Shown one piece after another: positions 60,680 through 64,000 of a DNA stretch of 64,000 nt. Numbering within the stretch: position 1 is the first letter of the stretch; each line of letters begins with the position of its first letter. Both the position numbers and the translations under genes were made by a program. The DNA is from Candidatus Obscuribacterales bacterium (GTDB lineage Bacteria > Cyanobacteriota > Vampirovibrionia > Obscuribacterales > Obscuribacteraceae), in NCBI GenBank assembly GCA_020050685.1, contig JAGVKG010000025.1, positions 1 to 64,000 on the forward strand, written 5' to 3'. The notes under the pieces are model-generated. The model made no database searches. It saw only the letters and a list, made by a program, of their open reading frames with translations, and was not told where the DNA came from.

Positions 60680-61279
60680 TTAGAAGTCGTGTTTCTTTGC
60701 CCACTTAACCAGCTCGTCCACGTCTTCTAATTCCAATTTGGCAGTTAATTGATCAAGCTCATTTGCCAATTGTTCTTCTGTCAAACTCAAGCGTTCGGCG
60801 GCTTTTGCTATGCCACCACGGGCGGTGACATGCCGCAAGAGATTTCTTTCGCTATGACTTAAGCGAGTCAAATGTCGAGGCAAAGAAGGTGAAATAACAT
60901 TGCGTGATCCGCGCGATACCATGAGCATGGTCATGCGAATCAATGCAGGCGCATCTTCCTTCAACACATAAGCACATGCACCAGCATCGAGTAAATCTTG
61001 CACTTCCGAGGCTTTGCCCTGACTGGCAAAAATTATTACTTTGGCATTGCGCAAAGAACAAAGGCGTTTGATCAAATCGAAAGTGGAGATCAAACCCGGC
61101 AAATGCAAATCAAGCAAGACCATATCCGGTAAAAGTTTCTGCGCTGATTTCCAAGCATCATCAGAAGTTTCCGCCTGACCGCAAACTTCAATCATGTCGC
61201 CTTGAGCCAAATCAGCAATTACCTTGGCTCGGGTTGGTCCATGATCATCAACTACTAGTAAGCGAATTGTATTTGAAAT
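60680..61279 (-). CDS. NarL/LuxR-type response regulator with ATT start
   Basis: The receiver domain has Asp11-Asp12 in LLVVDDHG, phosphoacceptor Asp57 in VLLDLHLPG and Lys in AYVLKEDAP, at classical spacing. A LuxR-like HTH follows (LSHSERNLLRHV, AKAAERLSLTEEQL). The reading frame has no ATG, GTG or TTG before the receiver strand. Upstream of the frame is a TAA. ATT at 61279-61277 has AAAGGAG eight bases ahead, so I infer an ATT start; TTG 61210 would delete the acidic pocket. It is 199 residues long. No kinase gene is paired with it. Confidence 0.85.
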   Translation of the reverse strand: MSNTIRLLVVDDHGPTRAKVIADLAQGDMIEVCGQAETSDDAWKSAQKLLPDMVLLDLHLPGLISTFDLIKRLCSLRNAKVIIFASQGKASEVQDLLDAGACAYVLKEDAPALIRMTMLMVSRGSRNVISPSLPRHLTRLSHSERNLLRHVTARGGIAKAAERLSLTEEQLANELDQLTAKLELEDVDELVKWAKKHDF

Positions 61280-61392
61280 GGCTTGGTCTCCTTTCGGATT
61301 CCTAGAATTTTACATGTCTTTGAGTTACTGACTTGGCACTTGCAAAGCATTTATAATCTAGCCAAGTGTCCAGAGGAAAAGGTAATAATTCC

Positions 61393-61962
61393 ATGAAAAA
61401 CAATCAGCTTACCATTTTACTAAGTCTTGCAGTCCTAGCTCCAGCATGTATCGGCGGATTAACAGCTTGTCAGGCCAATTCACAAGATGCAGCCACAGAT
61501 ACAGCCACGCAAACGCAAGGCACAAACACTGCACCAACAACTCAAATTGCCGATAATTCTATCGCCAACAATTCGACTAGCAATAGTCAGGCACCATCTT
61601 TATTAGCTCAATCAGGAGGAAATACCGTGACAACAGCTTCCGGACTTCAATATGAAGATTTAAAAGTGGGAGATGGTCAGATGCCCAAAGCTGGTCAAAC
61701 AGTTTCTGTGCATTACACAGGTTGGCTAACCAACGGACAAAAATTTGATAGCTCGTTGGACCGCGGTCAGCCTTTTCAATTCACTCTCGGCGCAGGCGAA
61801 GTGATTAGAGGTTGGGACGAAGGCGTTGCCAGTATGAAAGTTGGCGGCAAGCGCAAATTGACCATTCCACCAGGTTTGGGATATGGTGCACGCGGTGCTG
61901 GCGGTGTCATACCACCAAATGCAACTTTGATTTTCGAAGTTGAGCTTTTGGGAGTCGGCTAA
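61393..61962 (+). CDS. FKBP-type peptidyl-prolyl isomerase lipoprotein
   Basis: The 189-residue protein has a lipoprotein signal ([19 protein letters not shown], lipobox LTAC), a polar linker (about 28-75, rich in Thr/Gln/Asn) and a C-terminal FKBP domain (about 85-189). The domain has [29 protein letters not shown] and [13 protein letters not shown]. It should act at the membrane as a folding catalyst. ATG 61393 has AAAGG ten bases away. Confidence 0.92.
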
Positions 61963-61981: not shown

Positions 61982-64000
61982 TTACTTTGGAGGGAGAATA
62001 GATTTTATTCTCCCTTGCACTGCAGAAAAAACTTGCTCGAGCTTGGGTAATGATTCTTCAAGCTCTTCCCAGTTTTGATTGTTTGCCGAAGCTTCCATCG
62101 CCAAAGAAAGTTGTTGCAAATAAAGAGCGCGCATCATTGAGCTCGAGCCTTTCAATTCATGCAAGACCGACTTGACGCCTCTTAAGTTTCGCTCGTCAAT
62201 CGCAGTAGCCAACTTTTGCAAAAGTGCCTCAGTCGACTTGTCAAAAATCTCCAAGAGTTCATTGACAGAATCCCGACCAAAAATTTCATTCAGTGATTCA
62301 ACATCCAGCAAGAGAGCATGATTGCCTGTCTCAATTTGTCCCGAAAAGCTTTGCGAAAGCTCCTTAGCTGATACTGATTCTTTGGCTTTGAAAAACATTT
62401 CTGTCGCCCCAAGAGTAATTTCACCAGATGTTTTGCCCGGCATTATTAATGTATCCGAGACCATACCGGTATAAGCATTTGGCATCTTGCACGGAATCCA
62501 GCGTTGCAAAATTTGCAATAGTTTTTCTGCATCGATGGGCTTCGAGATGTAATCATCCATGCCAGCAACAATGCACTTTTCTCGATCGCCTTCCATTGCT
62601 TGGGCTGTCATAGCAATAATCGGAATGTGCCTGCCCGATAGCATCTCTGCTTTGCGAATCAGCTTGGTGGCATCGAAGCCATCCATTTCCGGCATTTGGC
62701 AATCCATCAAAATCAAACCATAGTCATGCAAGGCTAGTGTACGTATTGCTTCTGCGCCATTGGCACAAGTATCCGCCGAAATTCCAAAGGACTGCAATTG
62801 CAAAATTGCGACTTGTTGATTGACTTTGTTGTCTTCGACCACAAGCACAAGCTGACTTGCGTCTAACTCGCCGGCAAAATCCAAACTCTGCCGATTTGCC
62901 TTGCGTGTTTCTGTTGTCCAAGTCTTGGCGCCGCTACCTTCCAAGGCTCTACCCATGACTGTGGCAATACAATCCAGAAGTTCCGATTGTCTGACTGGTT
63001 TAGTCAAATAACCACTGAAACCGTTGGCAATAGCCATGTCCCCTAAGCCAACTGTGTCGTGGGCCGTGATCAAAATCATCTTAGTGTTAGAAAGCTTGGG
63101 ATCATCTTTGACTTGTGATGCCAATTCCATACCATCTTTTCCCGGCATGACTAAATCAACCAAGAGCACATCGTATGGATCGTTTTGAGCCTTGGCTTTA
63201 TGCAGGATATCGATAGCTTCATCTGCACTGGTGGCTTGAGCTGGACGCATTCCCCAAGAGTCTAAATATGCATGCAAGATGTGTCTGGCAATGGCTTCAT
63301 CATCAACCACACAAACGCGCAAACCACCAATTGCTGGTTTCTCTACTGGTGTCTTGGTCGACTTGCCGGTCCAACCAAAAGGAATCTCGCACCAAAATGT
63401 CGAGCCCTTGCCTTTAGTGCTTTCAACATCAATGACACCACCCATCATTTCAGTAAGATGTTTGGAAATCGTCAGCCCAAGCCCTGTGCCACCATGAGTC
63501 TTGCTTGCCGAAGCTTGTACAAATGGTTGAAACAAGCGGGACTTTTCTTCTGACGTCATACCGACTCCAGTATCGGCAACTTCAAAATGAATAATTGCCA
63601 TCGATTCAGACTTGGTTTTGAGCATGGCTCGAATCACAACTTCGCCATTCTTAGAAAACTTGATTGCATTGGCTGCCAGGTTCAAAAGAATTTGACGCAA
63701 GCGCCCAGGATCGCCAAACAAAACCGCTGGTACATTAGCGTCTACATAAGTCATGAGAGAAATTTGTTGGCTTCTGGCTTGCACTGCCAATAACTCGCCG
63801 ACACTTTCCACGACAGAAACCGGGTCAAACTCCATGAATTCAAGCCCGAGTTTGCCCGCTTCAACTTTAGAATAATCAAGAATATCGTTGATTACCGATA
63901 GCAGTGCATCAGCTGCATCACGCACTGTGGCTGCAGACTTTCGCTGATCATCGGTCAACTCAGTGCGCAATAGCGCATTAATCATGCCAATGATTGCATT
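61982..64000 (-). CDS. Hybrid sensor histidine kinase (5' end outside the window)
   Basis: The coding frame runs off the right edge, and its last visible upstream codons read NAIIGM, the region after the kinase phospho-His, which is missing. Visible parts are the end of the dimerisation domain and HATPase_c (N box LAANAIKF, G1 DTGVGM, G2 GGTGLGL). Two receiver domains follow ([14 protein letters not shown] and [16 protein letters not shown]). A C-terminal HPt domain ends the protein with phosphotransfer His in LHELKGSSS. This is a phosphorelay kinase; sensing domains lie beyond the window. Confidence 0.94.

Follow-up and report, generated by a model that had tools for sequence, protein, structure and literature searches.

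A probable AUU start codon behind a strong Shine-Dalgarno sequence in a response regulator gene of Candidatus Obscuribacterales

Introduction

From which codon is a response regulator gene translated when its reading frame offers no canonical start ahead of the receiver domain? The question is raised by a gene on the reverse strand of the window, by which we mean the whole 64,000-nucleotide stretch of DNA analysed here, and a first-pass annotation of this DNA had answered it with an ATT codon at 61279. Start codons of this kind are found in infC and pcnB of E. coli, where weak initiation and discrimination by IF3 have been demonstrated experimentally. We know of no AUU-initiated gene in the non-photosynthetic relatives of Cyanobacteria, nor of any other AUU start in the clade to which this genome belongs.

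Results

The reverse-strand frame at 60680-61309 is open from just after a TAA codon (61312-61310) to the stop codon at 60680, and the first ATG, GTG or TTG within it is a TTG at 61210 (61208-61210), so that our reading of the frame agrees with the earlier one. Initiation at this TTG would be too late for the receiver domain, which would lose strand beta-1 and its acidic pair; the earlier statement that the receiver needs residues encoded upstream of the TTG is borne out, as both beta-1 and the Asp-Asp pair are encoded there. These upstream residues can be taken to belong to the protein because orthologues start at M-I-R-L, ahead of them. A gene caller limited to ATG, GTG and TTG would nevertheless start at TTG 61210 and so remove the acidic pair from the predicted receiver.

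Read from the ATT, the gene occupies 60680-61279 on the reverse strand and comprises 199 codons and a stop. The 199-residue product contains every residue expected of a receiver, namely the acidic pair (D11/D12), the phosphoacceptor Asp (D57), the Ser/Thr (S86) and the Lys (K107), and the domain is matched by Pfam Response_reg at 1.2e-13. A profile built from nine orthologues matches VraR (2e-21), NarL (8e-19) and DesR over its full length. The protein is therefore like regulators of the NarL/VraR/DesR type in its receiver residues and full-length profile match, but unlike them in its C-terminal HTH, which is strongly diverged: Pfam GerE gives only weak, sub-threshold matches (best 0.003) in four of the nine members, and the regulator lies far under every NCBIfam equivalog cut-off shown. 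Judged by its sequence, the 60680-61309 frame is predicted to encode an intact NarL-type response regulator with a receiver and a diverged NarL-type HTH.

To place the start codon in context we assembled orthologues, about 40 of them from the family to which this genome belongs (Candidatus Obscuribacterales) and three from a sister family, which are 43-67% identical to the window protein, and aligned their starts at the V-V-D-D motif. The related genomes searched included none from the same genus. All of the approximately 40 family orthologues use ATG, GTG or TTG, nearly all of them ATG and a few TTG or GTG, and the usual start is the codon just before I/T-R-L (giving M-I-R-L). In the window this position is held by ACA (61270-61268, reverse strand), three codons downstream of the ATT. 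Because the start codon of the relatives aligns with this ACA, the ancestral start has been lost in the window lineage. Two genomes (G012 and G030) depart from the usual position with an ATG one codon downstream, and one (G013, locus L011) with a GTG two codons upstream that is preceded by a strong Shine-Dalgarno (SD) sequence. These shifts of one or two codons in other lineages (L004, L006 and L011) all keep a canonical codon.

None of these relatives has an ATT start, the family members using ATG, GTG or TTG at other positions, and a conserved ATT start was rejected for this reason. The ATT would thus be a lineage-specific start and not a conserved regulatory one. The first-pass annotation had proposed looking for ATG, GTG or TTG at this site in related genomes, as a finding that would speak against the ATT; the outcome is intermediate, such codons being used there, but three codons downstream and not at the ATT. 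It had also argued that initiation at the ATT places the phosphoacceptor at residue 57, as in CheY. This lends the ATT no support, because most orthologues start three codons later and have their phosphoacceptor at residue 54.

The gene does not look dead, because it retains every one of the 35 residues found to be invariant among the other orthologues; 55 of the 57 near-invariant residues are also retained, which matches most other members of the set. Its closest paralogue in the genome shares 31% identity, and there is no close second copy. In a protein tree the window sequence sits on a long branch whose place is uncertain. Many relatives share the gene order around the regulator, with a divergent FKBP-type isomerase gene upstream (61366-61962, forward strand, in the window) and a convergent DUF4234-like gene and ssb downstream, and a rearrangement importing a new upstream region was rejected on the basis of this shared order. 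Beyond the FKBP gene, on the same strand, lies a hybrid histidine kinase (61982-64000) with HisKA and HATPase domains, two receivers and an Hpt domain, which could be the partner of the regulator. One branch of the family (L007, L010, L016, L022, L024, L026, L038-L041 and L043) has, upstream of the regulator, a gene that points in the same direction and terminates in EDGCN-V-IAN, a sequence similar on visual inspection to the end of a GGDEF domain.

The proposed start codon, ATT (61277-61279, reverse strand), is the only in-frame near-cognate codon that is suitably spaced from the SD sequence AAAGGAG (61288-61294, reverse strand), and both the positions and the eight-base spacer given in the first-pass annotation were confirmed. 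The predicted pairing amounts to -9.0 kcal/mol with a standard anti-SD, which was assumed because the 16S rRNA gene is absent from the assembly. The 28 ATG-started genes of the window give values from +0.8 to -8.6 kcal/mol, all weaker than that of the ATT. Among 44 loci the SD of the ATT is the third strongest, exceeded by those of just two orthologues, L011 (GTG, -10.1) and L009 (ATG, -9.5), and the ACA at the ancestral position has a value of +0.3 kcal/mol.

A value of -9.0 kcal/mol is reached at 0.75% of random positions. In 20,000 random 14-codon stretches without stops or canonical starts, an equally good SD arose by chance before ATT in 0.3%, before any of ATT, ATC, ATA or CTG in 0.6%, and before any of seven near-cognates in 1.1%. 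The SD before the ATT exceeds chance expectation, although its support is good rather than overwhelming because the site was originally chosen for its SD. What is found at the locus is a complete conserved protein with no ATG, GTG or TTG to start it, together with a strong, well-spaced SD, and ATT 61279 is by far the best start on offer for the regulator.

A recurring element lies further upstream in the family. Of 43 upstream regions, 16 (among them L003, L004, L009, L015, L019, L021, L030 and L037) carry the sequence TGTATNCT no more than 120 bases from the start, compared with 0.4 expected from simple shuffling, a figure that relates to sequences which are not independent of one another, and the distance of the motif to the start varies. 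In the window and in L011, TGTAAAAT stands where L004 has TGTATCCT, at positions -44, -39 and -41 relative to the aligned codon. On the model of the recurring TGTATNCT, TGTAAAAT (61307-61314, reverse strand; TAAAAT at 61312-61307), which holds the TAA that bounds the frame, is a candidate -10 element. No promoter for the regulator rose above shuffles in a sigma-70 consensus scan, which did not list TGTAAAAT. Transcription from this element would start near 61300, leaving a leader of about 21 nucleotides that would contain no upstream ORF. There is no unusual mRNA fold at the start or leader (z = -0.43). An out-of-frame ORF of 31 codons (61255-61350), running from an ATG at 61350 to a TAG at 61257-61255, overlaps the proposed start; it has no SD and is probably due to chance.

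There is no support for ATT as a start codon in general use across the genome. The pattern AAAGGAG-N5-9-ATT occurs at 34 sites, compared with 57 for a reversed control, and is not enriched. Inspection of the other sites in the genome gave no second convincing ATT-started gene: L082 has an ATG just before its ATT, and the frames of L081 and L094 are short (60 and 88 codons). No second copy of the site itself was found in genome and viral contig collections, which may lack records from the same genome. In the family a TTG start appears to be conserved for infC (for example AGC TTG AAT ACA CCA; L058, L051-L075). An ATT-started infC in the clade was rejected, and the infC of this genome (L058, G000:C25:14542-15039) itself starts with TTG. 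The genome has an IF3 gene, and three members of the family (G010, G012 and G013) carry an additional, diverged IF3 gene that scores above the family cut-off.

Discussion

We put at about two in three the probability that the ATT is a real start codon in use, the regulator having lost its ancestral ATG, now ACA, and being translated from the AUU at 61279-61277 with the help of the strong SD. The proposal made in the first-pass annotation holds in that the ATT is the best start available to an intact and conserved gene, but it has to accommodate relatives that start three codons downstream, at the codon aligned with the ACA. In the mechanism we envisage, the AAAGGAG sequence with its 8-nucleotide spacer would hold the small ribosomal subunit on the weak AUU, and the initiator tRNA would pair with the AUU despite discrimination by IF3. 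The yield would probably be low, as AUU and AUA starts with extended SDs in S. aureus reach, in poor medium, about 10% of the level obtained with AUG (PMC13009471), and IF3 would be expected to limit initiation at the AUU further. Low, IF3-sensitive synthesis of the regulator is plausible given these yields and the repression by IF3 of the GTC start of Streptomyces sigR (PMC5472188).

The main rival is a consensus error or minority variant, in which the true codon would be ATG and an ordinary start would have shifted three codons upstream. While a single substitution would make the gene ordinary, and the sequence comes from a single metagenome-type draft assembly of 70 contigs, the frame is intact, the conserved residues are kept and nothing points to poor sequence quality. 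A consensus error is a rare event at any one base, and the loss of the ancestral ATG does not come down to one miscalled base because ACA differs from ATG by two substitutions. An upstream shift to a canonical codon with a strong SD has a precedent in the family (G013), and evolutionary switches to AUU are very rare, at 1/61,358 ancestral AUG and 1/5,080 GUG starts (PMC5622118). An SD of this strength would be expected before a weak codon and is itself rare before ATG, however, being found in none of the 28 window genes and in one orthologue (L009), and on balance we regard an error as unlikely.

It is less likely still that the start was recently lost and that TTG 61210 now gives a truncated, inactive product, if there is any product at all. 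In favour of this explanation, the ancestral start codon is gone and no canonical codon replaces it, but the full-length frame remains intact with 35 of 35 family-invariant residues, and a strong SD is placed where the ATT alone can use it. Least probable is initiation elsewhere, whether at ACA 61270, at ATT 61267 or through frameshifting or coupling from the 31-codon ORF: the ACA does occupy the start position of the family and the ORF does overlap the start, but the ACA has no SD, ATT 61267 lies 20 nucleotides from the SD, and ATG 61350, besides having no SD, is located upstream of the candidate -10 element.

That the whole lineage moved the regulator to AUU, strengthened the SD in compensation and thereby brought a two-component output under the control of IF3 seems to us doubtful. 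The ATT start is seen in one genome only, and its lineage-specific nature weakens the idea of an evolved IF3-dependent control; such control would not be ancestral in the regulator, because the relatives use canonical codons. An AUU start here would nonetheless add a rare AUU-initiated gene, and one that encodes a signalling protein. Since the relatives show the ancestral start and the same gene shows the compensating SD, the locus would also offer a usable case of start-codon replacement, and strong SDs tend to compensate for weak starts generally (PMC5622118).

Among the closest known systems are infC and pcnB of E. coli, which share with the regulator the AUU start, predicted in our case from the DNA, and, by expectation, weak initiation under IF3 discrimination. 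They encode different proteins, and the ATT described here occurs in one genome of a clade whose infC uses TTG. The earlier remark that ATT starts are known mainly for these two genes and would be rare in signalling is right as to rarity, but cvfC1, ccpN and sigR provide precedents (PMC13009471, PMC5472188). In S. aureus, cvfC1 starts with AUU and ccpN with AUA, both behind extended, strong SDs (PMC13009471). These two genes resemble the regulator in combining a non-canonical start and an unusually strong SD with a (possible) role in transcription regulation; their starts are conserved across the staphylococci or as far as B. subtilis and are supported by ribosome profiling and reporters (PMC13009471), while the ATT start of the window is predicted from sequence and is not conserved among the relatives compared. 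Streptomyces sigR is likewise a signalling gene in which a non-canonical start limits expression, although its codon is GTC and the effect of IF3 was shown directly there (PMC5472188), where for the regulator it would be expected by analogy.
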